Of a stretch of 42,398 nt of DNA, positions 288 through 42,398 are shown piece by piece. Position 1 is the first letter of the stretch. Each line of letters opens with the position of its first letter. This DNA comes from a virus, in IMG/VR virus record IMGVR_UViG_3300007735_000734, positions 1 to 42,398 of that record; one strand, given 5' to 3'. The notes under the pieces were generated by a model. That model worked only from the letters and a program-made list of their open reading frames with translations. It had not been told where the DNA came from and did not search any database. The translations under genes were made by a program, and so were the position numbers.

Positions 288-304
288 CTCTTCATCTCCA
301 TTCC

Positions 305-363: not shown

Positions 364-374
364 ATAGTCGCGTA

Positions 375-995: not shown

Positions 996-1032
996 ATTCT
1001 TTCCTTCATCTCTTATTCATCGCCGCCCTTAT

Positions 1033-1093: not shown

Positions 1094-1106
1094 CTAGCTC
1101 TTAGCC

Positions 1107-5658: not shown

Positions 5659-5667
5659 GGAACTTAA

Positions 5668-11400: not shown

Positions 11401-13716
11401 TTTAACGCTCTCAAGGGAAGCAGTATCCCAGGATTTGGTAAGGGAACTTTTACTGGAGAGGCAAAGGTCGTCGCTCCGACAGATCCTCAATATTGGTACG
11501 AGATGGCTCGCATCTCCAATAAAATTCTTCGCAACGATCAACTAGCCACCAGACTTCTTCTTAATCAGTCCGATGAAGAGATAGCCACCTGGCTACTTTC
11601 TCAAAAAGGTAAATTCTACTTACGCGAAATTGATGCGGATGTTAAGAAGTCTGAAGTATTGCTTCATATTCAAGAAGCCCGTACTCGTGTACAGAAAATG
11701 ATTCCAGACCCATTGGTGCGTCAGTTAATTGCTAGGGAAGAGCTTACTCCACAGCAGTTTGAAATTCTTTTCAGAGGACATCCTCAGTTGGATGTTCTGG
11801 CTGGACAAGAGTTCGTAGAAAACGGGCTTCGCGCCGGTCGAGGAAATATCCGTCGCAAACTCGAAAGAGGAGCAAGTAAGGTCATCAACACGATTGGTAC
11901 TATGCCAGAGGATCGATTGGTTTCTTGGCCATTCTACCAACGACTATATGAGAATTCACTTCGTCAAGAGGTTCGCCTGGCTGAACGAGCAGGCAAGAAT
12001 ATCAATGATGAAGATTGGATTATTCAGGCCGAGCGTACTGCCCACGATACTGCTCGCACCACTTTGAATAAAACCTTATATCGAGTCTTCAATAATTATG
12101 GTGCTGCAAGTTTTATGCGTTTTATTGTTCCATTCTTTAACGCGCAATATAATGCTCTTTGGTATTACGGAAAGACTTTCGTAAAGGATCCTTCAAAGCT
12201 GGCTCGCGCCTCTATGATCTGGAATTCACCAAACAATATTGCTACGGTTGTTGACGAAGAAGGCAACGAAGTTTCTTCTGGAGTCGGTCCATCAACTCCT
12301 CAATATCTTCTATTTACTTTGAGTCCAGAACAGCGTAAAACTTTTGGGATTCCTGGCGGATATAACGTTTATATTCCAAAAAATAGCTTGAACATCTTTC
12401 TTCAGGGTGAGAACCCTATTCTTCCAGCATTTGGTTTACCAATAATGATCCCTACGACTATTATCGCTAACTCCAAACCAGATTGGATTGGCAATATTGA
12501 AGGATTTGTTACAGAGATTGCTGGAAAACAGGCAGCAGATCTGACCCTTCGATCCATTCTTCCATTCGGTAGGTCGGTCAAGGATCCACTGACACAAGCG
12601 CTTCCAGCGTGGCAACAGAAGACCTTACAACGTTTAGAAGGTGATGACAACAAGGTTTATGCCAGCATCGTCGGAACAGCGATGAAGGTTAATGACAATG
12701 AATGGCAAAAGAATGGTAAGGTGGGTAAACGACCTACATATAAAGATGCCATCAAGGTAGCCAATCAGATGTATAAGATTCGTATTGCTGCGAATCTGCT
12801 CTTGCCAGTAGCCATAACTTTGAAGCCAGAATGGCAGTTTATCGTCAACGAATATTCTCGTGCGCTCAAGGATCCTGCTATTGGACCATCAAAGGTGTTT
12901 GACTACCTATATAGCAAGTGGGGATTAGAGGGTCTATACGTTACCGCTCCATCAACTCGTACTGAAACTGGAGTGGTTAAGACTATTGGAGCAGTGCGTA
13001 ATGCTCAGAAATATTCTAATCTCATAGCATCCTTCGATAAGTCATACCAGAGGCTTCCGTTACTGGCTGGATTTATTGCCAATTATGGAACAGTCGATAG
13101 TGGTGGCGAGGACTATGCCGCCAACTATTTCAGTGATCGTAAACTTCGAGCTGGCGGAAAGACCGTATGGTCTGAATCTCGTGCAGCAGATGATGTTGTA
13201 GAAGATCGTGAGATCCAAATTGGTTGGACCTTCTATCAAAAGGCACGAGAGAATCTTAACATTCGTCTTGATAGGGAAGGAATTTCTGGGCTAAATACTA
13301 AAGCGGCTGAAGATTCTGGTATCAAGGACGAGTGGGAATCTTATGTCGACGAGATGCGAAAGTTCTTCCCATTCTGGGGTAAGGCTTTTGATAATCCAGA
13401 AAAGACTATTGGAAAATCAGAGGCTTACGTCAAGGGGATTGAAACGATCCTTGCCGATAAGAAGTGGATGGCAGACAATGGAAATACTGCTGGAGCTAAG
13501 GCTCTTGTGGGATTTGTATCAACCCGTAAACTTCTTGTAAACACCCTTCAGCAGAGGAAGGCTGATGGTGGTTCCGCCAATATTGAGAATGAAAATAATT
13601 CTGATCTTTATGATGAATGGCAGAAATATATTCGAGATCTTTCTATATACTCAACAGAGTTTGCCAACCTATATACACGAGTATTAGAGAATGATAAGTT
13701 GGGAGCGATTGAATAA
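8413..13716 (+). CDS. Giant virion protein, probable ejection or internal protein
   Basis: At 1767 residues this is the largest gene, an eighth of the window. It is mostly alpha-helical by composition with many charged coiled stretches. A notable C-terminal-half segment reads AERTAHDTARTTLNKTLYRVF followed by MRFIVPFFNAQYNALWYYG. That A..A..T then PF..t..n pattern recalls conserved segments of large internal virion and polyvalent phage proteins (recalled, not searched). No peptidase or lysozyme motif was spotted. Its place between portal and scaffold, and the absence of a tape measure, favour a protein ejected with DNA in a short-tailed phage. Confidence 0.6.
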   Translation: MALKYWDGAKNFLSNSLGAIINTPTALANNLTNAAIQTGFQKTNPQINTTDLASNMNEATAAKNAAALNKSQQLARQAVDTVAKPAEILNIATAADSILGIVDSVYQTVRPVVTEPLSAYYLGMADFYTGKEVDWQKSWNQAQEISPGQSMSNFYSKSLGEFGITDYAKKEGLNLPTFLDPNFNIADPIARKKAFEDEVFGKLTSGFLDGTVAWFTDPLVLGGKAIAAGQRLTLTRPINSYDDVIRMRSDLDIHGMWVKSGGTMGRETPIGTAAERLVDKTPTEALVDPLIKNSTNPRLLARLTGNAKSYDDVADIIAASSGDVTSMNKLRANQASVAEDISRNQNILTDMQKELSIVDWGAGSIPERIFAKEAEKVKMQKVLDDLMQRNENLNVALSERVGDYRLIQNFTAGIDATILGKNIGVQIERLRGLKGQAEHNLTFFPRSFQDNALGVKVSNITMAWNKLPNGNVRVDGGGLADSATEVKAIINSIPDFKLASTPEEVAINLETKTQLLDNYISATSATGRRNALKAIEEQSIDVIASRYGFTAEEAKKMYQSWEQVRSNILKSFESRGSYVDDNGDIVTSPFWKSEMPNVVPMMDFAEFDKFLKANVGMLSSARSVGMQTAAEFEGWLDTLNSFFKVSVLTRIGYPVRNTIEGQTRIMTVLNSMVKADNVIANFSKNMATRAKIAKLYATRTVSITNPRQINTGINKLLYQRDSMVEARASILDQITERQYYAGATGVFGKKLEKETVERAILSETLMKEKDTYRFIELQYKMKEQDGLLYGKDHKDYMSLLNKAYRTYVSKEVLPTLPKGTTLVYADAFGGGVYYKIEGKRLPKTAVGDFDTRRGVPGQLLGEMEGPVKGVNVRGKEPSPDIRVFTTYENSRSMNYDNIAELLDDEYKVAIQTFTENINKIDEQVLDLMEKSMKLNAIRSELKIVRSGEEPVIFNLPSGKRVQFSGAFQGPNADLIRGEASGAKTLNWMSEQDAYVSFNALKGSSIPGFGKGTFTGEAKVVAPTDPQYWYEMARISNKILRNDQLATRLLLNQSDEEIATWLLSQKGKFYLREIDADVKKSEVLLHIQEARTRVQKMIPDPLVRQLIAREELTPQQFEILFRGHPQLDVLAGQEFVENGLRAGRGNIRRKLERGASKVINTIGTMPEDRLVSWPFYQRLYENSLRQEVRLAERAGKNINDEDWIIQAERTAHDTARTTLNKTLYRVFNNYGAASFMRFIVPFFNAQYNALWYYGKTFVKDPSKLARASMIWNSPNNIATVVDEEGNEVSSGVGPSTPQYLLFTLSPEQRKTFGIPGGYNVYIPKNSLNIFLQGENPILPAFGLPIMIPTTIIANSKPDWIGNIEGFVTEIAGKQAADLTLRSILPFGRSVKDPLTQALPAWQQKTLQRLEGDDNKVYASIVGTAMKVNDNEWQKNGKVGKRPTYKDAIKVANQMYKIRIAANLLLPVAITLKPEWQFIVNEYSRALKDPAIGPSKVFDYLYSKWGLEGLYVTAPSTRTETGVVKTIGAVRNAQKYSNLIASFDKSYQRLPLLAGFIANYGTVDSGGEDYAANYFSDRKLRAGGKTVWSESRAADDVVEDREIQIGWTFYQKARENLNIRLDREGISGLNTKAAEDSGIKDEWESYVDEMRKFFPFWGKAFDNPEKTIGKSEAYVKGIETILADKKWMADNGNTAGAKALVGFVSTRKLLVNTLQQRKADGGSANIENENNSDLYDEWQKYIRDLSIYSTEFANLYTRVLENDKLGAIE

Positions 13717-14846
13717 TGAGTGTACCAGAGGCACCAAATCCAAATAAAATCCTAAAAGGTGGCGACTCAACCACCGCTCCAACTATTAATATTGGCTACG
13801 GTGTTACTGGCGTACCCACTGATGTCAAGAAGATCCCTGGATACATTGATAGTCTTGCTAGCACTAATCCAGAAGCTTTCAAGGCTATGGCTGCATCAAT
13901 CAAACGCTTGGGTATACCAGTCCGTAAGTTTACTGATGTTGGTGTAGCGATAGCTGGATTTGTGACTAAGTTAAAGCAGGATACTAATCCCGCCCTCAGA
14001 GGTATTACTCTGGAGACTTTTCTTGCTTCAGCACCAGCAAAAGAGTCTTTTGCAGTACAGAAGAAAAAGAAGCCTACCAAGCAGTATTATCTTACAACCC
14101 CTGAAAATGCTGCGGCTGAACTTGATGCCGAGTTGTCAAAAACACTGGGCGTTACCGCGACCCCAGAAGAGCAAAAGGCATACTACAAAGAGTTGATAGC
14201 GGAGCAGAAAAAAGCTCCTATGGTAACTACCACTACTGATGGGATAGTTACTCAGAGTGCTGGATTCTCTGCTGCACAAAAAGAAGCATTACTTAATAAG
14301 TTCATAGCGGCACGAGCCGCTAAATCTATGGGCAAGGCAGAAATGGTCGGCGGAACACGCGTTGACGTTGCTGCTCCAGAACAATTTACTGGTGAATTTA
14401 TTAAGAACATCAATGCTCTCAAGGCATACTCCAATGCTTATGGGGTTCCAATGAATGAATATGAAATAAGGCGAGCCGCCATTCAATCTATTACTTCTCC
14501 TGGTGGAATTGATGCACAGGCAGAACAGATCAAAGCGGTGGCAAAGGGCATCTATTCCGGTCTTGCTCAATTCATTGATCAAGGACTAACTCCAGAAAAA
14601 TTGCTTCAGCCATACATCGCTAAGAAGGCACAGATTCTAGAAATCCCAGAGGAATCAATCACTCTGAACTCAACCGAAGGGCAGCAAGTGGTATCTAAAG
14701 TAGTGACTGATAAGGGCTTGCTCCCTATCTATAACTACGAACGCGAACTCCGCCAAGATCCACGCTGGCGTTTTACCAAAAATGCTAACGATGAAGCAGC
14801 AACTTGGGTCAATAGTATTATGAGAAGTTTTGGAATAGCGGGTTAA
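13716..14846 (+). CDS. Probable internal virion protein
   Basis: The 376-residue product has a disordered N-terminus, a mostly helical body and a C-terminal segment YNYERELRQDPRWRFTKNA followed by EAATWVNSIM. The ATG overlaps the stop of the giant gene by one base, and the following gene starts two bases after its stop, so the three form one translational unit. In short-tailed phages two or three internal or ejection proteins are often encoded side by side. No family was recognised. Confidence 0.6.
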   Translation: MSVPEAPNPNKILKGGDSTTAPTINIGYGVTGVPTDVKKIPGYIDSLASTNPEAFKAMAASIKRLGIPVRKFTDVGVAIAGFVTKLKQDTNPALRGITLETFLASAPAKESFAVQKKKKPTKQYYLTTPENAAAELDAELSKTLGVTATPEEQKAYYKELIAEQKKAPMVTTTTDGIVTQSAGFSAAQKEALLNKFIAARAAKSMGKAEMVGGTRVDVAAPEQFTGEFIKNINALKAYSNAYGVPMNEYEIRRAAIQSITSPGGIDAQAEQIKAVAKGIYSGLAQFIDQGLTPEKLLQPYIAKKAQILEIPEESITLNSTEGQQVVSKVVTDKGLLPIYNYERELRQDPRWRFTKNANDEAATWVNSIMRSFGIAG

Positions 14847-14847
14847 T

Positions 14848-15912
14848 ATGGCTGAACAACTTTTTAGTGATATTCCTGGTGAGGGTACTCTTTATCAGGT
14901 ACCGGTAATTGAACCTGAGCCAAAGATAATTACTGGTTCAACAAAGCCAGTTGCTCGTGGCAAATCAGGTATGTCACTTGCTAAAGAGCAGGCTATCGCT
15001 ACTCGTAAGGCTGCTGAAGAGAAGGCCGCCAATGAACGTAAGATGGCAGATATAAGTCTTGAAAGACGAGATGCTTTCCAGTTTGTTATCAATGCTCTCA
15101 AGCCATACGGCTTGGAAGGTGTTGGTCAGACCCTGAATGACCTAATGCTTGATCCAACAATCGGCCCTGCTAAAGCAGAGTACATTATCAAATACGATAC
15201 AGCGATCAACCCAAAGACCGGCAAGCCATTCAATGATGCTTATGCCAAGAGATTTGCTGGAAACTTCCGTCGCATCGAGCAGGGTCTTCCTGCCTATAGC
15301 GAAGGCGAATATATGGCCTATGAGAACGAATATAAGTCGCTTCTTAATTCCTTGGGCTATGGAAACCTTGCTACAAAGTCTGCTATGGAAAACTGGATTG
15401 CTAATACGGTATCCCCAAGAGAAGTAGCAAGCAGAGTAGAACTAGCTACCACTGTATCTATTCCCGTACAGGAAACACTCAAGAGTTTCTTGCCAGGAAT
15501 CGGAACAAATGACATTGTAGGCGCATTACTTGATACCGCCAATGGATTACCCATACTCAAGAAAAAGGTAGAGCGAGCGAAGATCGCCACCGCTGCCAAG
15601 ACAGCAGGATTGCCAACTCTTTCAGAAGCCCGTGCAGAACAACTTCTTCAAGCTAATGTCACTGAGGCACAAGCCCAACGTGGGTATATGAATATCGCCA
15701 GTGGTATCGAACGCGGTCGTCAATTAGCCGCACTCCAGGGTGAAGGAGACTTCACAATGGGAGAGGCAGAAAGTGCAGTCTTTGGACTTGCTGGCGCACC
15801 AGAGGCAGGAAAGAAAATGAAGAGACTTGCATCACGAGAACGAGTGCTATACGAAGGACAATCAGGATTAACTGCTGGCGCACTTGATACTGGACGAGCG
15901 GGCGCAATCTAA
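14848..15912 (+). CDS. Probable internal virion protein
   Basis: The 354-residue product has a Lys/Ala-rich coiled segment near residues 45-75 (LAKEQAIATRKAAEEKAANER) and then a globular helical domain (FQFVINALKPYGLEGVGQTL, later PAYSEGEYMAYENEYKSLL). A second Ala/Arg-rich helix lies near residue 245-290. Like its upstream neighbour it has no recognised family but sits in the typical place for ejection proteins, directly before the capsid genes. Confidence 0.6.
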   Translation: MAEQLFSDIPGEGTLYQVPVIEPEPKIITGSTKPVARGKSGMSLAKEQAIATRKAAEEKAANERKMADISLERRDAFQFVINALKPYGLEGVGQTLNDLMLDPTIGPAKAEYIIKYDTAINPKTGKPFNDAYAKRFAGNFRRIEQGLPAYSEGEYMAYENEYKSLLNSLGYGNLATKSAMENWIANTVSPREVASRVELATTVSIPVQETLKSFLPGIGTNDIVGALLDTANGLPILKKKVERAKIATAAKTAGLPTLSEARAEQLLQANVTEAQAQRGYMNIASGIERGRQLAALQGEGDFTMGEAESAVFGLAGAPEAGKKMKRLASRERVLYEGQSGLTAGALDTGRAGAI

Positions 15913-19624: not shown

Positions 19625-21422
<1,798 letters not shown>

Positions 21423-21431: not shown

Positions 21432-22487
21432 ATGAAAGTTGCCGTATATTCGATTGCCAAGAACGAAGAAAAGCACGTCCAACGATGGGCAGAATCAGCA
21501 ACTGATGCTGATGTACTCCTTATTGCAGATACGGGATCGACGGATAAGACCGTCGAAATCGCGCAGTCCTTGGGCATTATTGTCCATCGGATTAGCGTTG
21601 ATCCATTCCGCTTTGACGACGCGAGGAACGCGTCGTTAGCACTGATTCCAGCAGATATTGATTACTGCATCGCACTGGATCTGGATGAAGTCCTAGAGCC
21701 AGGATGGCGATGGGAGCTGGAAAAGTGTTACAAGTCAGGAGTCAATAGACCACACTATCGATTCATCACTAAGGTTAATCCTGATGGATCAGTGGCTCAA
21801 GAGTTTGATGGATTTAGAATCCACGGTCGCAAGAATGTCCGATGGAAGTTTCCCATCCACGAAGTTCCAATGAACTATGGTGTAGAGGAAAAACGCGGCA
21901 AGACCAGAATTACCATCAAGCACCTGCCTGATGAATCAAAGTCACGCGGTCAGTATCTACCAATGCTAGAGATGGCAGTGTTGGATGATCCCTCGAACGC
22001 CCGCCATAAGTATTACCTAGCTCGTGAGTATTTCTACCACGAGCGCTTTGAAGAAGCAGCAGACTTCTTTAGGTTGTATTTAGATCAATCAGACTTTCCG
22101 GCAGAGAAATCCTCTGCTTATCGGATGCTCGCTAAATGCGAGCCAGAGGAAGAGGAAGCCCACTTCCTGCGATCTATTGCAGAGAATGAAGGCAGAGAAT
22201 CGTTCCTTGCCCTAGCAGATTATTACCATCGCCAGAAGCGGTGGGAAGAGTGCCTAGCGGTAGCGATGAAATCGCTGGAATATACCGAAAAAAATCTTGC
22301 TTTCATATCAGAAGAGTGGGCGTGGACGCACACTCCGTACGACTTGATAGCAGTAGCAGCGTGGAACTTAGGTTCTTATGAGACAGCAGCAGAGTATGGC
22401 AAGAAGGCAGTAGAGATCACACCCAACGACGAGAGGCTTCAGACAAATCTGAAGTTCTACCAGGAGAAGATAGATGGCAACACTTAG
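21432..22487 (+). CDS. GT2-family glycosyltransferase with TPR-like tail
   Basis: The 351-residue protein has a GT-A domain: AVYSIAKNEEKHVQRW (~4-19), IADTGSTDKT (~31-40), a DxD metal site in ALDLDEVLEP (~81-90), and FPIHEVP near 140. From about residue 185 it has helical TPR-like repeats (YYLAREYFYHERFEEAADFF, WEECLAVAMKSLEY, AAEYGKKAVEITPND). It would transfer a sugar to a protein or saccharide. Its place between the collagen fibre and adaptor genes suggests the fibre as substrate. AGAAGG abuts the ATG, unusually close. It overlaps the next gene by 14 bases. Confidence 0.85.
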   Translation: MKVAVYSIAKNEEKHVQRWAESATDADVLLIADTGSTDKTVEIAQSLGIIVHRISVDPFRFDDARNASLALIPADIDYCIALDLDEVLEPGWRWELEKCYKSGVNRPHYRFITKVNPDGSVAQEFDGFRIHGRKNVRWKFPIHEVPMNYGVEEKRGKTRITIKHLPDESKSRGQYLPMLEMAVLDDPSNARHKYYLAREYFYHERFEEAADFFRLYLDQSDFPAEKSSAYRMLAKCEPEEEEAHFLRSIAENEGRESFLALADYYHRQKRWEECLAVAMKSLEYTEKNLAFISEEWAWTHTPYDLIAVAAWNLGSYETAAEYGKKAVEITPNDERLQTNLKFYQEKIDGNT

Positions 22488-23370
22488 CGATATGATTGAT
22501 GAGGTTCGTTCCTCTCTCGCTGGTTATACCTTGCGACAAGATCGAATCACCTATCTCAATACGGCTATCAATACTACTGACCTTGCGATTCAGGTGGGAT
22601 CTTCGGCAAACCTTGCCAAAGGCATTGTCGAGATTGACAGTGAACTCATCTGGGTAGATAACTTCAATAAGACGACAAACACTCTTAATGCGGCTCCTGG
22701 CTTTGGTCGAGGATTTCAGAACACTACTGCCGCCCCACACGCTCAGTATGCTCAAGTCACCCTTAGCCCAACCTTCCCACGAATGATGATTCAGCAGGCA
22801 ATCAATGATACTATCAATAGCGTCTATCCTAAACTCTGGGGTGTTGCCTCCACTACCTTTACTTTCAATGCTTCTCAGATCACCTACCCATTACCTGATG
22901 ATGCTGAGAACATCCTTTATGCTTCGTGGCAAACTACTGGATCTTCGCAAGAGTGGCTACCGATAAACAAATGGCGTATGGACTCGATGGCAAATATCGC
23001 CACCTTCAATACCCAGACGACAATCAATATCTATGAGAATATCCAACCAGGTCGTACCATCCAAGTCTGGTATACCACTCAACCGAATACCTTAGATTCC
23101 AGTACTGATGACTTTTCTCTCGTCTCAGGACTTCCAGAATCAAGCAGAGATGTAATTATTTATGGAGCCTCTTACCGTTTGATGAGCTTCATTGATGCCG
23201 GTCGTATTAGCCTTGATAGCGCTGAATCAGATACCGCCAATAACAAGATCCCATCCACTGCTGGAACTTCATCCTCGCGGTACTTACTGGCTCTATATCA
23301 ACAAAGACTTGATGAGGAATCGCGCAAGCTATCCGACATCTATCCGATCCGAATCCACTACACAAGGTAG
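22474..23370 (+). CDS. Head-tail adaptor-like structural protein
   Basis: The 298-residue product begins ATLSDMIDEVRSSLAGYTL, continues with beta-rich segments (VEIDSELIWVDNF, FTFNASQITYPLPDDAENIL) and ends with a helical part holding DVIIYGASYRLMSFIDAGR and RYLLALYQQRLDEESR. The long C-terminal helix with GA--RL pattern resembles adaptor or tail tubular A-type proteins that sit under the portal in short-tailed phages. The call is from pattern and context. GGAG lies 8 bases before the ATG. Confidence 0.55.
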   Translation: MATLSDMIDEVRSSLAGYTLRQDRITYLNTAINTTDLAIQVGSSANLAKGIVEIDSELIWVDNFNKTTNTLNAAPGFGRGFQNTTAAPHAQYAQVTLSPTFPRMMIQQAINDTINSVYPKLWGVASTTFTFNASQITYPLPDDAENILYASWQTTGSSQEWLPINKWRMDSMANIATFNTQTTINIYENIQPGRTIQVWYTTQPNTLDSSTDDFSLVSGLPESSRDVIIYGASYRLMSFIDAGRISLDSAESDTANNKIPSTAGTSSSRYLLALYQQRLDEESRKLSDIYPIRIHYTR

Positions 23371-23376
23371 GAATCA

Positions 23377-23763
23377 ATGACAGTAAGAAAATACTCCACG
23401 ATCAGCCTAGAGACGACTCTGGCTTCATCTATCAACTCTTCTGCCACGAGTCTAACTGTCGCTACTGGTACTGGTACCACGCTCCTTGGTGGAGTGACGC
23501 TGACGGCTGGAGACATCTTCCTTTGTGCCATTGATCCTGATACCTCTAGTGAAGAGATCATCTATGTCACGGCACGAACTGGCGACACTCTGACTATCAC
23601 CAGAGGTCAGGCAGGAACCAGCGCAATCTCACACTCTAACGGTGCCACGATCCAACACGTCTTTACCGGCGAGGATGCACAACACTTTGAGGACTCGATC
23701 AATAGTTTGGAAACAAATACAAGTGCTGGCGTAACAACTGCGCTAATGCTAATGGGTGGATAA
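23377..23763 (+). CDS. Tail-fibre-associated structural protein
   Basis: The 128-residue beta-rich product shows TTLASSINSSATSLTVATGT, then FLCAIDPDTSSEEIIYVTA, GDTLTITRGQAGT and HSNGATIQHVFTGEDAQHF. The order 'DPDT--EEI--VTA--G-TLT-TRG--GT-A-SH--GA---H' is common in small fibre or baseplate-type proteins of phages. It probably decorates the tail tip. AGGAATCA precedes the ATG. Confidence 0.65.
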   Translation: MTVRKYSTISLETTLASSINSSATSLTVATGTGTTLLGGVTLTAGDIFLCAIDPDTSSEEIIYVTARTGDTLTITRGQAGTSAISHSNGATIQHVFTGEDAQHFEDSINSLETNTSAGVTTALMLMGG

Positions 23764-23779
23764 GAAAAGGAGACTATAA

Positions 23780-24109
23780 ATGCCAACCAATTACAAAGTC
23801 CTTGGGCAATCAAACCCAGCGGCAACCACAGCAACATCCCTCTATACGGTGCCAGCCTCCACACAGGCCGTGGTATCCACTATCGTCATCGCTAACCTTG
23901 CAGCGACCTCAGCGACCTTTCGGATTGCTTGTCGCGTAGCAGGAGCAGCCTTGGCTAACTCACAGTATGTCGCATACGATGTCAGCGTCGGAGCTAATGA
24001 CTCCACTGCACTGACTCTGGGTGTGACCTTGGGTGCAGCAGATGTCATTACTGTCTATGCCTCAACTGCAAACGTAACCTTCACCGCATTTGGAAGCGAG
24101 ATCTCCTAA
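23780..24109 (+). CDS. Conserved small virion protein
   Basis: The 109-residue product reads NYKVLGQSNPAATTATSLYT, then VPASTQAVVSTIVIANLAAT, with Ala/Thr/Val-rich strands to the end TFTAFGSEIS. This compact beta sandwich, with KVLGQ-NPAATT at the start and FGSEI at the end, is a recurring small virion protein next to fibre genes in many phages. GGAG precedes the ATG; the stop overlaps the next gene by one base. Confidence 0.7.
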   Translation: MPTNYKVLGQSNPAATTATSLYTVPASTQAVVSTIVIANLAATSATFRIACRVAGAALANSQYVAYDVSVGANDSTALTLGVTLGAADVITVYASTANVTFTAFGSEIS

Positions 24110-24762
24110 TGGCAGTTAATTCATTTAATGCTCAAAACCCACCGGTAACCACTAAGGGTGATCTCTTTACCTTTAGCACCATTCCAACGCGGTTGGCTGT
24201 TGGTACTAATGGTCAAGCATTACTGGCAGATTCGACCACAGCCACAGGGCTAAAATGGGGCGCGGCGGGATCAACGCCAAGTTTTACACTTTTAGGCACG
24301 GGTACAACTACCAGCGGCACCACAGTTACAGTAAGCGGAATATCGGGAATAAATCAACTTTTTATTTATTTCAATGCCGTTACAAACAACACGGCTGGAA
24401 ATGAATTTAGATTACGACTAAATGCAGATAGCGGAACTAATTACAATTACAGCAACGAGAGATTGAGCGTGGGTTCCAGTAATTTTGGTGCAACGGTGGA
24501 TAACACGACATTTTTTAGATTAGCGACCACCGGTGCTGGTACGGATGCTTTGAGTGGACACGCGATGATTTTCGGTTGCAATTCCACAAACGCGAAAGTA
24601 GCGACAATAACAAGCGCGGCTTCTTATACCGGTACAACCGGCGGTTTCCATTACAATGGCGGCGGCTATTACACCGGCAGTTCGACCATTAGCAGCGTAT
24701 CTTTAATCTCATCAACCGGTGCTTTTAATGGTGGCAGTTTCTTAGTCTATGGGAGTGCGTGA
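24109..24762 (+). CDS. Tail fibre, receptor-binding-type head 1
   Basis: The 217-residue product has a short fibre-type N-terminus (VTTKGDLFTFSTIPTRLAVG, then NGQALLADSTTATGLKW), common in phage fibres, joined at about residue 58 to a beta-sandwich head (FTLLGTGTTTSG onward) ending SFLVYGSA. Base use changes at that junction: the head uses more A/T-ending codons and AAT/TTT runs than the N-terminal part, suggesting that the head was swapped in. Related heads occur at 24986, 26299 and 27175. It probably contacts the host surface. Confidence 0.75.
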   Translation: MAVNSFNAQNPPVTTKGDLFTFSTIPTRLAVGTNGQALLADSTTATGLKWGAAGSTPSFTLLGTGTTTSGTTVTVSGISGINQLFIYFNAVTNNTAGNEFRLRLNADSGTNYNYSNERLSVGSSNFGATVDNTTFFRLATTGAGTDALSGHAMIFGCNSTNAKVATITSAASYTGTTGGFHYNGGGYYTGSSTISSVSLISSTGAFNGGSFLVYGSA

Positions 24763-24763
24763 A

Positions 24764-24970
24764 ATGTATAAAGAAATTATTTACAATATTGAAACCGGCG
24801 AAACGACAGAGCGTGAATATACGGCTACGGAAATCAAAGAAGTGGAAAAAGCTACTTTAGAAGCGCAAAAACAAGTAGCAGAATTAGCGGACAAAGCTAA
24901 GACAAGAGCAAATGCACTTGCCAAACTCGCCGCACTTGGACTAACCGAAGAAGAAATCGCTGCTCTTTAG
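24764..24970 (+). CDS. Small coiled fibre-accessory protein 1
   Basis: The 68-residue product reads MYKEIIYNIETGETTEREYT, then a helix rich in Glu, Ala and Lys, ending LAKLAALGLTEEEIAAL. The start at 24764 is chosen over an in-frame ATG at 24749 because GGGAG lies 9 bases upstream. It is a clear paralog of 27687..27920, which shares the N-terminal '(I)-TGE-T-E-T--EI' and the C-terminal ALAKLA-LGLTE. Such proteins usually follow fibre genes and may act as assembly chaperones. Confidence 0.75.
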   Translation: MYKEIIYNIETGETTEREYTATEIKEVEKATLEAQKQVAELADKAKTRANALAKLAALGLTEEEIAAL

Positions 24971-24985
24971 GAGAGTACATCACCT

Positions 24986-25858
24986 ATGGCTATTACCCGA
25001 ATCAAGAACTCCAGCATCAGAAGCAACGGGCCAAAGTACGACAACGCCCTTGCTGGTTTGCCGTATCGTCCTACGATCGGCACAGCCACCGACGGTGGTA
25101 CCGGTACCACGGTATCGGTTGCCTTCACCGAGAACAATTCTGCCGGTGCTGGCATTACCTATACCGCCTTGTCCACTCCAGGATCATTAACGGGAACAGG
25201 ATCTGCAAGCCCTGTTACCGTCTCTGGTTTGACTACTGGTACTGCCTATACCTTCCAGGTTAAGGCAGGTAATAGCCTTGGTGATTCTGCGTATTCCTCT
25301 GCAAGCAACTCGGTAACTCCGATCTCACCCTCCAGCTATGAATCTATTGCTACTGCTACTGGTACGGGTTCAAGTTCAACATTAACTTTCAGTTCTATCC
25401 CTAGCACCTTCAAGCACTTACAAATTCGGGGAATCGCTCGAGGTACAGCAAACGGCGGAACAACTCCACTCACGCTTTGGATTCAATGTAATTCTGATAC
25501 CGGAAGTAATTACGCTTACCACAGATTGCAGGGAGATGGTTCTACTGCTTCAGCACTTGGCCAAGCAACGCAAACAAAAATATTTGCAGGAGTTTACGCA
25601 GATTCAGGTTATGCAGCCAACATAACAGGCGCAATATATGTTGATTTGCTTGATTATGGTTCAACATCCAAATATAAAACTTTCAGAGCTATGTCGGGTG
25701 TAGATGATAATTCCGGCACCACTGGATCACAAATAAGTTTGCGTTCTGGATTATGGATGAGTACGAGCGCGGTAACTTCGATTACCATAACAAACAATGG
25801 TGGGGATAATTTCTCAACTTCAACCACTTTTGCCCTATACGGAATTAAGGAATTTTAG
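24986..25858 (+). CDS. Tail fibre with fibronectin III domain and head 2
   Basis: The 290-residue product has a short basic N-terminus (AITRIKNSSIRSNGPKYDN), a fibronectin type III-like domain at ~28-112 (VSVAFTENNSAGAGITYTAL, SGLTTGTAYTFQVKAGNSLG), and a C-terminal head from ~115 (YESIATATG, TLTFSSIPSTFKHLQIRGIA) ending FALYGIKEF. The head is paralogous to those at 26299 and 27175. AGGAGAG precedes the ATG. Fn3 domains in phage tails help surface adhesion. From about 25370 the base composition is again more A/T-rich than the Fn3 part. Confidence 0.8.
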   Translation: MAITRIKNSSIRSNGPKYDNALAGLPYRPTIGTATDGGTGTTVSVAFTENNSAGAGITYTALSTPGSLTGTGSASPVTVSGLTTGTAYTFQVKAGNSLGDSAYSSASNSVTPISPSSYESIATATGTGSSSTLTFSSIPSTFKHLQIRGIARGTANGGTTPLTLWIQCNSDTGSNYAYHRLQGDGSTASALGQATQTKIFAGVYADSGYAANITGAIYVDLLDYGSTSKYKTFRAMSGVDDNSGTTGSQISLRSGLWMSTSAVTSITITNNGGDNFSTSTTFALYGIKEF

Positions 25859-25861
25859 ACT

Positions 25862-26299
25862 ATGCCCCAAGGTGGTCACAACAAGATTGCAGACTTCTGT
25901 ACATTAGAGGATTGCAACAAGCCGTATATGGCTAAGGGATATTGCACAATGCACTACCGCAGATTCCGACTATACGGAAATCCACAAACCAAATTACGAA
26001 ACGGAATCCAAACCAATCAAGATGGGTACACCTACATTAGAGTAGTGCCTGGTAATGGAAAACTAGGCAAATATAAACTAGAACACCGGATCGTAATGGA
26101 ACAGCACTTGGGCAGAGAACTTCTTACCACAGAGTATGTTCACCACAAGAACGGCAATCGTAAAGATAATCGTATAGAGAACTTAGAACTATGGTCACAC
26201 GCACAACCGCCAGGACAAAGAATTGAGGATAAAGTGACTTATGCCATTGAAATCCTAGAGCAGTATGCTCCACACCTTTTAGGCAAGGTGAGTGCATAA
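25862..26299 (+). CDS. HNH endonuclease 1
   Basis: The 145-residue protein has an N-terminal zinc-finger-like part (FCTLEDCNKPYMAKGYCTMH, i.e. C-x4-C ... C-x2-H) and an HNH nuclease core: HRIVMEQHLGRELLTTEYVH, then HKNGNRKDNRIENLELWSH. The HH--N--DNR-EN-EL pattern is the beta-beta-alpha metal site. It lies three bases after one fibre gene and overlaps the next by one base, so it is expressed with them. Free-standing HNH genes are often mobile and nick near their own locus. A role in fibre-gene exchange is inference. Confidence 0.88.
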   Translation: MPQGGHNKIADFCTLEDCNKPYMAKGYCTMHYRRFRLYGNPQTKLRNGIQTNQDGYTYIRVVPGNGKLGKYKLEHRIVMEQHLGRELLTTEYVHHKNGNRKDNRIENLELWSHAQPPGQRIEDKVTYAIEILEQYAPHLLGKVSA

Positions 26300-26805
26300 T
26301 GGCAGCAGGAGCAACTTACGAGCCAATAGCGACCGCTTCCATTAGTGGAGTTTCGACTTACACATTTTCCAGTATTAGTGGTTCCTACACAGACTTGAAA
26401 TTGATTACAAACGCCATAGTCGGAAGCGCAGGAGATTATTTGCGTATTAGATTTAATGGCGATACTGCTACCAATTATTCCTCAACCGGACTTCGGGGTA
26501 ATGGATCAGCCGCAACAAGTAGCCGTTTTACTTCCCAAACCGGTATTTATTTGGGAACGGCTAAAGGCGGTTCAACTACTGTTCCTTTTTTGGCTATTGC
26601 TAACGTATTTTCTTATGCCGGTTCTACTAATAAAACTTGCTTAATTGAATACTCTAACGATCAAAACGGAGATGGAAGCGTTGAAAGGCACGTTGGATTA
26701 TGGAGAAGCACCTCAGTCATAACTTCTATTACAGTTTATTCTGATGGTGGGTTCAATTTTGGTACTGGTTCAACTGCCACCCTCTACGGAATAAAGAGCG
26801 CGTAA
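26299..26805 (+). CDS. Tail fibre, head 3 (stand-alone)
   Basis: The 168-residue product is a head domain alone: TYEPIATASISGVSTYTFSS, ISGSYTDLKLI, a beta body with LRIRFNGDTATNYSSTGLRG, and an end ATLYGIKSA. It lacks the fibre-type N-terminus seen at 24109, so it may attach to another fibre or be expressed as an exchangeable tip. Its ATG overlaps the HNH stop by one base, and its stop overlaps the next HNH start by one base. Confidence 0.75.
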   Translation: MAAGATYEPIATASISGVSTYTFSSISGSYTDLKLITNAIVGSAGDYLRIRFNGDTATNYSSTGLRGNGSAATSSRFTSQTGIYLGTAKGGSTTVPFLAIANVFSYAGSTNKTCLIEYSNDQNGDGSVERHVGLWRSTSVITSITVYSDGGFNFGTGSTATLYGIKSA

Positions 26806-27173
26806 TGAAACCCTGCAAAGAGTCTAATACGGGAATTACCAACAACGGGTATAGCCGCATTAAACATAATGGCAAAAACATACAAGCACACCGACTTGCG
26901 TGGGAAGAAGCAAATGGCACGATCCCCAAAGGATTAGTTATTGATCACCTCTGCCGCAATCGTAAGTGTGTAGAAGTGGATCATCTAGAATTGGTAAGCC
27001 AGCAAGTCAATGTAATGCGTGGGCTGCACAATATAGATAACCGAACTCACTGCAATAAAGGTCACCAGTTTGAAGGGAACATTATGGTACGCAAGAACGG
27101 CAAGCGTGAATGTGCCGAGTGTAACCGAGAACGAGCAAGGGCAAACTACGCCCGTAAAGTAAAGGCGGCCTAA
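26805..27173 (+). CDS. HNH endonuclease 2
   Basis: The 122-residue protein shows AHRLAWEEANGTIPKGLVID, then HLCRNRKCVEVDHLELVS, an HNH core of the LAW-x-x-x-G-x-I-P-G-VIDH-C-N--C---HLELV type common in phage homing enzymes. Its C-terminus has CNKGHQF and CAECNRERARANYARK, a second zinc knuckle with a basic helix for DNA contact. It differs from HNH 1, so the two were acquired independently. It overlaps the preceding fibre gene by one base and ends two bases before the next. Confidence 0.88.
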   Translation: MKPCKESNTGITNNGYSRIKHNGKNIQAHRLAWEEANGTIPKGLVIDHLCRNRKCVEVDHLELVSQQVNVMRGLHNIDNRTHCNKGHQFEGNIMVRKNGKRECAECNRERARANYARKVKAA

Positions 27174-27174
27174 T

Positions 27175-27678
27175 ATGCCTACACCCACTTATGTCGCTTT
27201 GGCTAAGACAGTTTTGACAACAACGGCTAGTTATGTTGATTTTGATGCAATTCCGCAAACTTATACAGATTTAATAATAGTTGCATCTACGCGCAATAAC
27301 TCTGGAGCAGGTGAACAAAATATTGTATTACGAAACAACAAAGCAGCTTTTAGTAGTGCGCGTGGCTTAGAGGGCAATGGTTCTTCTGCTTCATCTAACA
27401 GTTTTGCAAATCAAGGAAGTGTAGCAAATAGCACTTTTACTAGCAATACTTTTACAAGTAGTGAATTTTATCTAGCAAATTATACAAGAGCAGGAAATCA
27501 CCAAACCAGCTCAACTACTGCTAACGAAAACAACACGGCTACAATTACAAATGGCATAAGAGCAACTGCCGCCGTAGATTCGGAAAGTGTGGCTGTCACA
27601 TCATTACGGATAGCTTCTACTTTAGGCAGTTTTGTTTCCGGTTCCCGTTTTGACCTATACGGCATTAAGAACTCATAA
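27175..27678 (+). CDS. Tail fibre, head 4 (stand-alone)
   Basis: The 167-residue product starts PTPTYVALAKTVLTTTASYV, has DFDAIPQTYTDLIIVASTR and ends SRFDLYGIKNS. It is related to heads 2 and 3 through the pattern 'IP-TY-DL-I' and the LYGIK end, but is otherwise divergent. A/T-ending codons prevail. It has no fibre N-terminus. It lies directly after HNH 2 and before the second accessory paralog. Confidence 0.75.
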   Translation: MPTPTYVALAKTVLTTTASYVDFDAIPQTYTDLIIVASTRNNSGAGEQNIVLRNNKAAFSSARGLEGNGSSASSNSFANQGSVANSTFTSNTFTSSEFYLANYTRAGNHQTSSTTANENNTATITNGIRATAAVDSESVAVTSLRIASTLGSFVSGSRFDLYGIKNS

Positions 27679-27686
27679 GGAGAAAA

Positions 27687-27920
27687 ATGGCAGACAAACC
27701 AACCAAACTCATTGTTGATTGCTCGACAGGGGAGCAGACAGTAGTAGAGCTGACTGACGAGGAAATTGCTCAACTAGAGGCTGATCGCGTAGCAGCAGAG
27801 GCGCAACGAGCAGAGCAAGAGGCAGCAGAGGCAGCTAAGGCACAAATTAAGGCAGCAGCTCTTGCCAAGTTAGCTTCACTCGGACTTACTGAGGACGAGG
27901 CTAAAGCCATCGCTGGCTAA
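27687..27920 (+). CDS. Small coiled fibre-accessory protein 2
   Basis: The 77-residue product reads KLIVDCSTGEQTVVELTDEE, then a long Ala/Glu/Gln helix, ending ALAKLASLGLTEDEAKAIAG. It is a paralog of 24764..24970. AAGGAGA precedes the ATG. One copy follows the first fibre head and the other follows the last, so they bracket the HNH-containing cassette. Proteins of this kind in other phages sit after fibre genes as assembly factors or tip subunits; the function here is unproven. Confidence 0.75.
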   Translation: MADKPTKLIVDCSTGEQTVVELTDEEIAQLEADRVAAEAQRAEQEAAEAAKAQIKAAALAKLASLGLTEDEAKAIAG

Positions 27921-28042
27921 TGAGCCTGATCACAGGAAACTGCACGACCGATGATCTCCCCTCGTGGGAGGATTTTGTCGACCCTATAGACGGATATAAG
28001 GAGAACAATGCCCTACGGCTCAGACATCACCGAAGGTGGTGA
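27920..28042 (+). CDS. Possible 40-residue protein overlapping the nozzle gene
   Basis: The ATG overlaps the previous stop (TAATG) and the frame reads MSLITGNCTTDDLPSWEDFV then DPIDGYKENN before entering the next gene out of frame for 35 bases. The upstream part has normal coding character and fills an otherwise empty gap. No RBS beyond coupling is seen, so existence is uncertain. Confidence 0.4.
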   Translation: MSLITGNCTTDDLPSWEDFVDPIDGYKENNALRLRHHRRW

Positions 28043-29939
28043 GTACCGCGAGATAGCCTTCTCGCTGTCCAATCCCAATATCGCTGCGTCGATCTACACT
28101 CCAACCGACTATGCCTACGATATAGCCATCAACGGTTTGCCGTTCTTCCTGATGAATAGCGATCAGAACCCTTATCGTCGGGTGACCGCCAAGTATCGCA
28201 AGGATCAATTCGATCAAACCCGCGAAGCGGGTGAGCAGTCGCTTACTGGCTGGTGGTTCCGATCCCAGTCATCCTTCCACCTTGGCGCTGGTATCAAGTA
28301 CTTCGAGCCTGCTCAGGATGAGTCCTTGCGATTCCAGTACACCGAATCCAAGGGATGCGATATCTGGACAAAGGGCCAAGTAGAACTTCTCAATACGACC
28401 GTCAGGGCGCTTACCAGTTCCAATACTCCATTAATCATCGGAGCCAATGATGGCACCAATGACTGCCTTGTTGTTGCTGACGCAACCGAACTCAAGAAGA
28501 TCACGATGAGTAACGATACCCCTACCGTATCTACCTATACTCAAGCTGGCACTGCTTCTACCATCTTTGATCTGACCACCGATGGAACCCGTTACTGGTT
28601 TATCAATACCACTCACGTCCATCGTGGCAATATCGGTGGCGCTACTGGTGATACAGAAATCTACAACGCATCTTCTACCACCGCCGCTCGCATTAAATAT
28701 GTCAAACAACGCCTTATTGCAGCAGTCAATAACACATTACGAGAATTAGATCCTGCTCATACTGGCGGAGGAGCGCTTCCGGCGGCTTTCTACACCCACC
28801 CACAGACTGACTGGACCTGGACGACAATCTCTGAAGGTCCTGCTGCCATCTATGTTGGCGGCTATAGCCGCAAGAACTCTTCTATCTATAAGATTACCCT
28901 TGATCTCACCGCAGCCAATTCACTAGGATTCCCCGACCTTAATGTTCCTACCGTTGTCGTCGATCTGCCAGAGGGCGAGATCATCAATACCTTTGATACC
29001 TACCTGGGAACCTATGGCGTTCTTTGCACCAATAAAGGTGTGCGAATAGCCATCCTTGGCACTGAAGGAAATGTCTCCTACGGCCCGCTTCTTTTTGAAG
29101 TCGAATGTACTGATGTCACCTTCCGTGACAAGTTTGCCTATGTCTCTACCAAGGTTGACGGTGAATCAGGATTGGTTCGTATTGATCTCTCAGAGCCTGT
29201 TATCGCTAACAGTCTGGTCTTTCCCTACGCCTGGGATGTCTACGCTTCTGGAGAGACGACGACAAGCAATTCTACCGCCTTCCTAGGAGCGACCGATAGG
29301 GTCGCTTTCTGCGTTCCTGGTGACGGTGTATGGATCGAATCCTATGGCGTAAAGGTTTCTAGCGGGTATCTCCAAACCGGTTATATCCGTTACAACACTC
29401 TTGAGGACAAGATCTTCAAGTTCCTTAGTCCACGCGTTGATACTACCAATGGTGCCTTTACGGTGTTCTCTATTGGAGAAACAGGTACTGAATATGATAT
29501 CGGTGGCTACGCCCAAGGAACAGGAGCAAGTGAACTCGGTATTCCTTACCCTACCGGTACTCATCAATACCTTGGCTTCAAGTTCACCTTGAATCGATCA
29601 TCTACTGATTCCACTAAAGGACCACTCTTTACCGGATACCAACTCAAGAGCTTGCCCGCAGTACTTCGTCAACGACTGATCCAATACCCATTAGCCTGCT
29701 ATGACCACGAGAGCGATTCACTCAACAACGAGGTCGGCTATGACGGTCGAGCCTTCGACCGTTTGAGCAACTTGGAAAGCATTGAGAATGTCGGAGACAC
29801 AGTACGCGTACAAGATTTCAGAACCGGTGAATCCTTCATCGGTCTGATAGAAGAGATGGATTTCCGAAACGTCACTCCTACCGACAAGCGTTTTAGCGGG
29901 TTCGGAGGAGTCCTCACTGTTGTCATAAGGACGGTATAA
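28008..29939 (+). CDS. Tail nozzle-like beta-propeller protein
   Basis: The 643-residue product is beta-rich throughout, with repeated blade-like units such as IYVGGYSRKNSSIYKITLDL, YLGTYGVLCTNKGVRIAIL and FAYVSTKVDGESGLVRIDL. Early it has WWFRSQSSFHLGAGIKYFEP then SKGCDIWTKGQVELL, a pattern I associate with tail tube or nozzle proteins of short-tailed phages. It would form the tail end below the adaptor. AAGGAG lies before the ATG. With the adaptor-like gene at 22474 it supports a podovirus-like tail. Confidence 0.6.
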   Translation: MPYGSDITEGGEYREIAFSLSNPNIAASIYTPTDYAYDIAINGLPFFLMNSDQNPYRRVTAKYRKDQFDQTREAGEQSLTGWWFRSQSSFHLGAGIKYFEPAQDESLRFQYTESKGCDIWTKGQVELLNTTVRALTSSNTPLIIGANDGTNDCLVVADATELKKITMSNDTPTVSTYTQAGTASTIFDLTTDGTRYWFINTTHVHRGNIGGATGDTEIYNASSTTAARIKYVKQRLIAAVNNTLRELDPAHTGGGALPAAFYTHPQTDWTWTTISEGPAAIYVGGYSRKNSSIYKITLDLTAANSLGFPDLNVPTVVVDLPEGEIINTFDTYLGTYGVLCTNKGVRIAILGTEGNVSYGPLLFEVECTDVTFRDKFAYVSTKVDGESGLVRIDLSEPVIANSLVFPYAWDVYASGETTTSNSTAFLGATDRVAFCVPGDGVWIESYGVKVSSGYLQTGYIRYNTLEDKIFKFLSPRVDTTNGAFTVFSIGETGTEYDIGGYAQGTGASELGIPYPTGTHQYLGFKFTLNRSSTDSTKGPLFTGYQLKSLPAVLRQRLIQYPLACYDHESDSLNNEVGYDGRAFDRLSNLESIENVGDTVRVQDFRTGESFIGLIEEMDFRNVTPTDKRFSGFGGVLTVVIRTV

Positions 29940-40476: not shown

Positions 40477-41045
40477 TACGCGATCACCTTCTCAATGGCA
40501 TCTTTGGGGATATCAAACTTCCCGCTCGATAGGAATACAGCTTCTTCATCCTCTTCGAGATTCATTATCGCAGCTTCGCGGCCAGTCATACTATCGATAT
40601 AGCGATAGCCTTCTCGCTCCAACTCGCGGCAGATATCGCGCAGTTGCTTCTCGATGATGCTTCCATCGATATCGATCCATTCATCATCACCATCGTATCC
40701 TTCTACGCTGAAGGAATTCCAGTGAGTATTATGGTAGCCGAAAGAATTACGGTTGAGAGTAATATAGGCGCAGCCTACGGGCCAGGTCAGTGAGCTATCT
40801 TCCTGCCGCGTAAGGCGGCCGTAAATAGCTACGCCATCGCCCTGGCAGTGATTCAGTGAAAATCGTACTTCGAGATCAGTAGGAAGATGACCTAACTTTT
40901 CTTCTAATCTAGAAGTCAGATAATCTTTGACTTCATCGCTATCCATAACTTCATATAGGAATTCCTGATATTCCCGGATAGCTCTCTCTCGCGCATCACC
41001 TTCTAATTCCTGGAAGGTATATCGCCTTACCGTGTAGTACTTCAT
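40476..41045 (-). CDS. Conserved phage hypothetical (YTF-EL family), complete copy
   Basis: The 189-residue product starts MKYYTVRRYTFQELEGDARE. It contains RFSLNHCQGDGVAIYGRLTR and a mid part with GYHNTHWNSFSVEGYDGDDE, ending with a helical acidic domain. The TF-EL---A+E-AI-EY opening and the FSLN-CQGDGVA-YG stretch are typical of a widespread uncharacterised phage family. The start at 41045 with GGAG is preferred to 41066. Its 5' part is repeated at 1..287. Function unknown. Confidence 0.78.
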   Translation of the reverse strand: MKYYTVRRYTFQELEGDARERAIREYQEFLYEVMDSDEVKDYLTSRLEEKLGHLPTDLEVRFSLNHCQGDGVAIYGRLTRQEDSSLTWPVGCAYITLNRNSFGYHNTHWNSFSVEGYDGDDEWIDIDGSIIEKQLRDICRELEREGYRYIDSMTGREAAIMNLEEDEEAVFLSSGKFDIPKDAIEKVIA

Positions 41046-41132
41046 CTCTTCATCTCCATCCCGCATTAGGACATTCGCCTAATATGCGGCCACCTTCCAG
41101 GGATATCGCTAGCCCTGGAAGATAGTCGCGTA

Positions 41133-41846
41133 TTACGCCTTTCGCATAGGCATCAGTAACGCCCTCCAGGTTACTTTATTGCCCTCCAGGCCGATGATAA
41201 TCGGCTTCTTTTCATCGATAAATTCGATCGTCACGCTGCCCTTCTTCCCTACGATCTTCGCGTAATCGGCAAAGAAGGAAGGGTTCAGAGTGATATTCGC
41301 CAGAGCTACACGCGGTTGATCTTCCGCGGGCCATAGTTGATCAGTGGGAGGGTAGGTACCATCAAAGGCGCGAAAGGATACTTCCTGATCCAGATAGCGG
41401 GCCGTTACGCGATCACCATCGCGTTCGATCGTCATAAAGATATTGATACCCTTCGCCGCCTTCGCTAACGCGATGATCTTCTTCGCATCATCGACAGGAA
41501 TTACCGTGGCAGGTAGTGATCCCGCCATATTCTCCACTTGCTCTACTTTCCCTTCTATCAAGCGATAGCGATCGGTAGCCTTAGCGATCACTTGATCGCC
41601 TTCCGATACGATCGAGATCGTGTTGAGTAGGGGCAGGCTCTTATCCTTGCCCGCGTGGGTAATTACTCCCTCTAATAGCTCTAATAAGGTGCCCGCGTGA
41701 ATTGCTACCGTGCCGGTAGTCTTCGCCGCTTTATCTTCTAGTGATGCCTTCATCTCTTTTCCTTTCCTATTGATCTCGCCAGTGGGGTTAGATGATGACC
41801 AGCTAACCGTATCGACCATATCTTCATCGCGTAATTGTGCGCTCAT
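41133..41846 (-). CDS. DnaN-like sliding clamp, right copy with optional N-terminal extension
   Basis: The core from M at 41753 is 206 residues and matches the left clamp over most of its length, with changes clustered in two places: NTISIVSEGDQVIAKATDR for NTIGIESSGDLVIARATDR, and GINIFMTI for GSYAYMTI. The C-terminus again ends LLMPMRKA. An in-frame start at 41846, with the same AAGGAAAAG context as the left gene, adds 31 residues (MSAQLRDEDMVDTVSW...). The ATG at 41753 has its own RBS, so one locus may give two proteins. Like the left copy it has two, not three, DnaN domains. Confidence 0.83.
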   Translation of the reverse strand: MSAQLRDEDMVDTVSWSSSNPTGEINRKGKEMKASLEDKAAKTTGTVAIHAGTLLELLEGVITHAGKDKSLPLLNTISIVSEGDQVIAKATDRYRLIEGKVEQVENMAGSLPATVIPVDDAKKIIALAKAAKGINIFMTIERDGDRVTARYLDQEVSFRAFDGTYPPTDQLWPAEDQPRVALANITLNPSFFADYAKIVGKKGSVTIEFIDEKKPIIIGLEGNKVTWRALLMPMRKA

Positions 41847-41957
41847 ATCTTTTCCTTCATCTCTTATTCATCGCCGCCCCTATGGCAGCGATGCCGTATC
41901 GGTAAGGATACGATCTAAGGCAGGGAATATCAAGCATCCCTGCCCTAGCTCTTAGCC

Positions 41958-42101
41958 TTATCGGTAGCCGATTAGGTGGCACACTCTCCCTTCTATCGTG
42001 TCGCGACATTCGCCATATACCGGCTCTAGGAATATCGCCGCGGCCAGGATAGTCAAGGCCAGGGCCGCCAGGAGGGCTAGTAATATCTTTTCCTGGCGCA
42101 T
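41958..42101 (-). CDS. Small single-pass membrane protein (right copy)
   Basis: The 47-residue product starts MRQEKILLALLAALALTILA, nearly identical to 1107..1250, with the tail ECRDTIEGRVCHLIGYR. The ATG at 42101 overlaps the previous stop. A longer frame to 42170 covers the upstream gene and is rejected. The very high conservation compared with the nearby clamp region suggests that the sequence is constrained. Confidence 0.7.
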   Translation of the reverse strand: MRQEKILLALLAALALTILAAAIFLEPVYGECRDTIEGRVCHLIGYR

Positions 42102-42259
42102 CATTGACCTACCTGGATGCCCGCATAGCGGGCCATAGTGTCTAGGGCGATATGGATATCGCAGCGGCATTGATCGCCGCCCATATTTTCCTCATATTCC
42201 AGGTGAGAGTAGTTACTCTCATAAATCTCGTTTATCAATTCCTGGAGAGTGTCGCGCAT
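42101..42259 (-). CDS. Hypothetical 52-residue protein (right copy)
   Basis: The product reads MRDTLQELINEIYESNYSHL and ends ARYAGIQVGQ. It is the counterpart of 1250..1411, with one codon deleted and several substitutions in the middle (GGDQCRCDIH for GGGELCDCEIH), keeping two cysteines. The start at 42259 is the second of two ATGs behind GGAGGA. Confidence 0.68.
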   Translation of the reverse strand: MRDTLQELINEIYESNYSHLEYEENMGGDQCRCDIHIALDTMARYAGIQVGQ

Positions 42260-42398
42260 CATTCCTCCGCACAATCGCATAGATGGCCGCAGGTATAGCA
42301 AACATAACCGCATCCCCAGGCCGTGTTATACCCGTACACGCGGCGGCCATCGCCGCCTATAAAGGTGTACCAGCGGCCCGCGGCGTCCATCGCCGCCC
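42259..42398 (-). CDS. Small Cys-rich protein (right copy, 5' end cut)
   Basis: The frame ends with GYNTAWGCGYVCYTCGHLCD and CAEE and runs off the window edge before its start. It is the counterpart of 1411..1587, with CAEE for CGEE at the end. The stop overlaps the following ATG. Confidence 0.7.
   Translation of the reverse strand, partial: AAMDAAGRWYTFIGGDGRRVYGYNTAWGCGYVCYTCGHLCDCAEE

Follow-up and report, generated by a model that had tools for sequence, protein, structure and literature searches.

A three-slot fibre-tip locus of a probable actinophage, with likely single-head exchange at conserved junctions that HNH genes occupy

How do phages change the receptor-binding tips of their fibres, and do the endonuclease genes lodged among the tip genes cause the change or merely live there? 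Phages of the very abundant freshwater Nanopelagicales carry highly variable fibre islands, which the main text of the study describing them reports without a mechanism (PMC10202952). The question is raised in a concrete form by a freshwater phage with the viral record IMGVR_UViG_3300007735_000734, of which positions 1-42,398, the whole stretch of DNA analysed, are called the window here. Between 24109 and 27920, four fibre heads (headA to headD) are interleaved with two genes for HNH endonucleases (HNH1 and HNH2), and a preliminary description proposed a host-range locus in which homing-type nucleases drive the gain and exchange of heads. The reading favoured here, which we consider probable, is that the locus specifies a three-slot fibre tip whose heads are exchanged singly via conserved junctions, and that the HNH genes are chiefly occupants of these junctions.

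To collect related viral loci (designated by L-numbers), the flanking genes, the HNH genes, headC and a DNA pattern of the junctions were used as queries. After clustering, the order headB-headC-headD-small is seen in 155 non-redundant arrays of viruses, a few of which are incomplete; the cultured Planktophila phages E7 and F5 are represented among them, and a recurrence on this scale reflects more than chance. An HNH gene is present in 10 of the 155 arrays, leaving about 145 that have none. In cellular genomes, relatives are almost absent (2 loci). All genes of the window locus lie on the + strand. HeadB (24986..25858), in slot 1, contains an fn3-like stretch at residues 38-108 (Pfam, 1.4e-5) followed by the head domain and ends in LYGIKEF; headC (26299..26805, 168 amino acids), in slot 2, ends in LYGIKSA; headD (27175..27678, 167 amino acids), in slot 3, ends in LYGIKNS. 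The short protein smallB (27687..27920), a possible assembly factor, closes the module in most relatives. The three heads form distinct paralogue classes, as a tree of 183 heads requires 5 changes of slot label versus 87 in shuffles, and heads of the same slot have a higher median identity (46%) than heads of different slots (35%), even when the latter belong to one virus. The backbone that carries the module varies, the module following stem genes in the window and a collagen-like gene in L006, L085 and L089. In L088 (about 11807-15014) and L165, the array is doubled (BCDBCD), apparently by tandem duplication of the whole triad.

HeadA (24109..24762, 217 amino acids) stands outside this triad. 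It is only distantly related to the other heads (19-24%), ends in LVYGSA and has its own small gene, smallA (24764..24970, alternative start 24749), which encodes a short charged protein. Units of headA and a small gene recur independently in relatives, for example in L016 and L089. The conserved unit is B-C-D-small in fixed slots, and headA-smallA is a separate module. Thus the pair of small proteins once thought to bracket four heads does not do so: each small gene trails its own head module, and the direct similarity of smallA to smallB is limited to a C-terminal LGLTE motif (E=0.011). Other features of the preliminary description were borne out, namely the open reading frames of the heads starting at 24109, 24986, 26299 and 27175 and of the HNH genes at 25862 and 26805, the LYGIK ending of most heads, and a lower share of G/C-ending codons in the heads (0.38, 0.32 and 0.25 in B, C and D) than in the stems (0.47-0.50). 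Junctions of 1-3 bases, said to run throughout, hold from headB to headD (-1 to +3 bases), whereas the outer ones are longer (15 nucleotides (nt) between smallA and headB, 8 nt between headD and smallB). In another lineage (L016, L018, L041, L046 and L047), headA-type heads alternate with small genes (headA small headA small) at the same position, in place of B-C-D.

Exchange of single heads is documented by 16 pairs of non-redundant arrays in which one or two heads are 80-100% alike and at least one other is about 43-62% alike. For example, L173, L175 and L209 have headC sequences that are 96-98% alike beside different B and D heads; between L173 and L175, headC is 98% alike, headB 47% and headD 45%, with a synonymous divergence (dS) of 0.13 in the shared headC and above 1 in B and D. 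Similarly, L158 and L270 share headD (96%), while L194 and L263 share B and C (99-100%) and differ in D (56%). HeadD of L132 is about 80% identical to that of the window, but the gene downstream is only 33-44% identical. More generally, a pair of arrays can combine near-identical single heads, with dS of 0.01-0.13, and heads whose dS exceeds 1. In the pairs examined, the arrays were recovered from different metagenomes and most are not 100% identical, two points that argue against simple assembly chimeras as the source of the discordance, although individual cases may be of that kind. The view of the locus as a variable fibre-tip locus, probably of host-range function, with real head exchange is upheld. 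Relatives sharing one gene order and exchanging no heads had been named as evidence that would overturn the reading given in the preliminary description; the order is indeed the same in relatives, but exchange does occur.

The exchanged blocks tend to end at gene borders. Their swap-side edges lie mostly at -44 to -23 relative to the ATG of the slot on the left and at +14 to +103 past its stop codon on the right, and most shared blocks stop within about 100 bases of gene junctions. These borders coincide with DNA that is conserved beyond the protein. Over the final 12 codons of each head, the divergence from interior codon usage amounts to 0.7-1.0 bit per conserved residue, versus 0.04-0.07 inside (p of 1e-4 for B, 4e-5 for C and 5e-9 for D); the first 14 codons depart by 0.35 bit in headC (p 8e-6) and by 0.18 bit in headD (p 0.016). 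The ends carry slot-specific signatures, for example GCC CTA TAC GGA ATT AAG GGA GCA TAA for B and ACC CTC TAC GGA ATA GCG GCG GCA TAA for C. The tract at the junction of B and C (B|C) comprises about 70 bases that are conserved even where the heads of the viruses hardly align as DNA. In the window, its left part is the end of headB (25823..25858) and its right part the start of headC (26299..26333). The left part of the C|D tract (26775..26805), at the end of headC, holds a direct-repeat copy, TACGGAATAAAG, and the conserved end tract of headD (27648..27678) holds the third copy of this 22-nt repeat.

A three-slot tip could vary as follows. The locus would encode paralogous, lectin-like heads B, C and D, each in its fixed position, and after them a small protein that may have a part in assembly. 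During co-infection, homologous or homeologous recombination would use the junction tracts as short homology arms, and one head would be replaced while its neighbours are left undisturbed. HNH1 and HNH2 would target, or at least settle in, the same tracts; by reusing the 3′ tail of a head, with its Shine-Dalgarno-like and TAATG coupling signal, they would allow translation of the next head to continue. The HNH genes would thus be mainly junction parasites that may occasionally promote a local conversion.

Several points weigh against this scheme. Some exchanges are intragenic, as L158 and L173 part about 170 nt into headB. Exchange borders that fall in conserved tracts are not finely mappable, and conserved ends by themselves draw alignment edges to the junctions. 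Between the window and L021 or L003, the proteins of the heads have diverged much further (nonsynonymous divergence, dN, 0.38-0.60) than those of the flanks, at a dS similar to that of the flanks, hence old replacement and rapid divergence cannot be separated there; the dN/dS ratio, tried on the window relatives as a way to tell the two apart, was uninformative as dS is high everywhere. Finally, the conservation of the junctions could serve translational coupling or a C-terminal function of the protein instead of recombination.

Of the alternatives, the one that survives best takes up this last point. Junction conservation would be purely a translation or RNA signal, made up of a Shine-Dalgarno sequence and TAATG coupling, with any role in recombination incidental. 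AAGG..G motifs spaced before the ATG and TAATG overlaps are common at the junctions, and the HNH genes have the same kind of 3′ tail. These signals account for part of the conservation but not for the upstream L, Y and G codons: synonymous constraint extends over these codons and some positions as far back as about codon -12, farther upstream than a Shine-Dalgarno sequence would lie, and is also seen in the first codons of headC. In addition, the B|C junction shows no conserved RNA structure (-0.83 kcal/mol; compensatory pairs are absent). An exclusively translational role is a serious possibility, yet one that we regard as doubtful.

What the exchanged units might build can be approached through structural models. 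The AlphaFold2 model of headC is a beta sandwich (predicted local distance difference test, pLDDT, 91.5). Against the PDB, it gives weak lectin-type matches, to the minor pilin PilC and to galectins, with template-modelling (TM) scores of about 0.34-0.48; against phage proteins, it gives high-TM matches, mostly to unnamed proteins without a known function. From their fold and position, the heads would bind a cell-surface glycan. A model of B and C in one chain was obtained by in-frame read-through of the stop codon in L149 (NCBI table 6 served as a modelling device) with an alignment of 13 natural B-C pairs. The chain, which covers B and C, reached a predicted TM score (pTM) of 0.81 even though the linker is disordered, and the model points to packing of B against C. 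Neither C nor D has its own stem, in keeping with an assembly of both on B. On the models, therefore, a heteromeric tip of B, C and D is plausible, and this is the preferred reading of the architecture. In L015, B and C form a single open reading frame (626-1618), either through a natural deletion or as an assembly artefact; this fusion was not used as a sign of interaction, as the deletion costs B its end and C its start. A bolder version of the same idea, which we put forward as rather speculative, would make B, C and D an obligate heterotrimeric tip and the junction DNA a set of homology arms kept as a built-in feature. Freshwater actinophages would then reshuffle single subunits into combinatorial specificities, and the HNH genes would be specialised parasites of the arms.

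The HNH genes themselves resemble free-standing genes of the homing type that have moved into the junctions. HNH1 (25862..26299), in the B|C junction, has an N-terminal Cys/His cluster and a head-like 3′ tail, AAGGTGAGTGCATAATG, and HNH2 (26805..27173) lies in the C|D junction. Both belong to the Pfam family HNH_3 (PF13392; 45.7 bits, 5e-12 for HNH1 and 63.9 bits, 1e-17 for HNH2; cutoff 24.8), so the earlier view of two unrelated genes stands insofar as they represent different subfamilies (BLASTP E=0.11 against each other) and fails insofar as they share this family. Neither type is tied to one junction: HNH1-type genes occupy B|C in the window, L107/L021, L108 and L109 and C|D in L089 and L170, and HNH2-type genes occupy C|D in the window and L139 and B|C in L130 and L260. 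Both junctions are found occupied and empty among relatives, as expected of free-standing homing genes, and no HNH gene was seen inside a head in the mapped arrays. In 1.4 Mb of loci that had not been fetched by HNH queries, a sample partly picked for heads, 4 of 7 genes of these two HNH types sit at head junctions.

The borders of the insertions are informative for both genes. The block that the window has in common with L107/L021 (25823-26333, 511 nt, 90.6%) consists of HNH1 and about 35 bases of each adjoining head, its edges falling on the left and right parts of the B|C tract; outside it, the heads have about 40-65% nucleotide identity. Compared with L021, HNH1 is under purifying selection (dN 0.02, dS 0.65, dN/dS about 0.03). 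The shared flanks might stem from co-conversion, but the dS of HNH1 is not clearly below that of all backbone genes (0.62-1.7). For HNH2, empty C|D sites in L003, L021 and L133 read CTCTACGGAATAAAGGCGGCCTAA ahead of the headD start, whereas the left border in the window reads CTCTACGGAATAAAG then AGCGCGTAATGAAA and the right border, at the HNH2 end, reads GTAAAGGCGGCCTAATATGCC. Comparison of the empty and occupied borders places the insertion at the lysine codon of LYGIK, in the last codons of headC. Consequently, what was once the tail of headC now forms the end of HNH2, and headC has acquired another; the 3′ tail of HNH2 (27160-27173, TAAAGGCGGCCTAA) agrees with the end of headC in relatives that lack HNH2. 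Head-like tails with a TAATG overlap to the next head are seen in most HNH genes at junctions, and the HNH1 relatives found outside junctions (L008, L062, L110) have no head-like tail.

Do these genes drive the exchange, as the preliminary description supposed? The nucleases would cleave alleles at the junctions if these were head-less or different, and copying of the adjoining heads during repair would create diversity. The HNH genes do lie at the B|C and C|D borders where heads change. Moreover, Seg enzymes of T4 give flank co-conversion and marker exclusion (PMC2988022), and marker exclusion was also described for lactococcal HNH enzymes (PMC12724721). Against this, the array and its order persist in the roughly 145 arrays that carry no HNH gene, and 15 of the 16 slot-discordant pairs consist of HNH-free arrays only. 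An HNH-bearing virus takes part in one of the 16 pairs where about 2 would be expected by chance from 10 of 155, hence the data show no link between HNH genes and exchange. Likewise, the HNH1 block of the window and L107/L021 takes in just about 35 nt of each adjoining head. As the array and its exchanges occur without them, HNH genes were rejected as the cause of the array, and the proposal that they drive head gain and exchange was not sustained; we consider it unlikely. Nevertheless, an HNH gene may start individual local conversions, and HNH genes may formerly have been present at arrays that are now HNH-free.

Still less probable is that no special exchange takes place, the heads diverging fast under host pressure while their ends are conserved for folding and translation. 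The dN of 0.38-0.60 at flank-like dS seen between the window and L021/L003 is what such divergence would give. However, heads with dS of 0.01-0.13 next to heads with dS above 1 in the same pair are impossible to obtain by point divergence, unless they are assembly artefacts. Head switching by a diversity-generating retroelement or an invertase, suggested by variable receptor-binding genes with repeated ends, was rejected as barely credible, since no reverse transcriptase or recombinase family was found among the window open reading frames scanned with Pfam, no long inverted repeats surround the heads and the variation spans whole heads.

In the window, the heads are preceded by a fibre backbone (22474..24109) made up of up298 (22474-23370), stem128 (23377-23763) and stem109 (23780-24109). 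Further upstream are a long collagen-like repeat fibre gene (19965-21422) and, between it and the fibre base, a gene for a family 2 glycosyltransferase with TPR repeats (21432-22487), whose place is taken in relatives by the same gene or by another of about 350 amino acids. Downstream, a conserved gene (28008..29939, 643 amino acids) serves as a landmark of the locus. It has relatives in Immanuel3-type Streptomyces phages, in which one protein replaces stems and heads. Window positions 1-1550 and 40759-42398 are mutual repeats of 91-95% identity in the DNA polymerase III beta-clamp region; the record, although classed as lacking end repeats, probably represents an almost complete genome, about 40.8 kb long and closed with two strain variants.

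Cultured relatives are available. A search of INPHARED with headC retrieved only the Planktophila phages E7 and F5 (listed as ct2KA10; records LanE43-AprE7 and AprF5), and a search of the same database with headD gave no match. In phage E7 (OX376640; locus L183), B (5417-5992), C (5995-6504) and D (6504-7013) are followed by the small gene and lie between the same landmark genes as in the window, without an HNH gene. The Planktophila phage LanE43AprF5 (OX376641) is 96% identical to LanE43AprE7 over the part compared. Because of these Planktophila phage and Streptomyces phage relatives, an actinobacterial host is likely for the window virus. E7 and F5 have a published 5-kb variable island, whose three proteins are probably heads B, C and D, and the main text of that publication gives no account of slots, single-slot exchange, junction conservation or HNH insertion (PMC10202952). 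The present analysis offers a testable rule for fibre-island variation, in which three paralogous slots would be swapped singly at conserved junctions, and phages E7 and F5, which have a laboratory host, LanE-43, are at hand for such tests. It also draws apart head exchange and the homing nucleases resident in the locus, between which a cause-effect link is often assumed. Phage fibres usually have a homotrimeric tip, and a tip that is heteromeric and combinatorial, if true, would be a departure from this.

Among known systems, the virophage DSLV2 has three consecutive related tail proteins that co-purify as a heterotrimer that binds cells (PMC12724248). B-C-D resembles it in comprising three consecutive paralogues in a fixed order, but the DSLV2 proteins are T4 gp37-like collar-domain proteins and do not belong to the B/C/D head family. 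A Pfam search for the collar domain PF07484 in the heads gave no match and the nearest folds differ also, hence B-C-D is not a member of the DSLV2-like tails and is at most an analogue; neither slot exchange nor HNH genes are reported in the main account of DSLV2 (PMC12724248). The seg and mob genes of T4 and the HNH genes of lactococcal Skunavirus are likewise endonuclease genes that occur sporadically between conserved phage genes; they have short co-inherited flanks, to which the flanks of the HNH1 block may correspond (PMC2988022, PMC12724721). Unlike these, the putative homing genes described here comprise two HNH types found in the same kind of site, at a pair of paralogous junctions, and take over the 3′ tail of a head. 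In lambdoid phages, boundary or linker sequences, which are short stretches of conserved DNA at gene borders, are used for modular exchange. In contrast to the lambdoid linkers, the tracts of the B-C-D arrays fall within the coding ends of paralogous tip genes and are repeated within one array.

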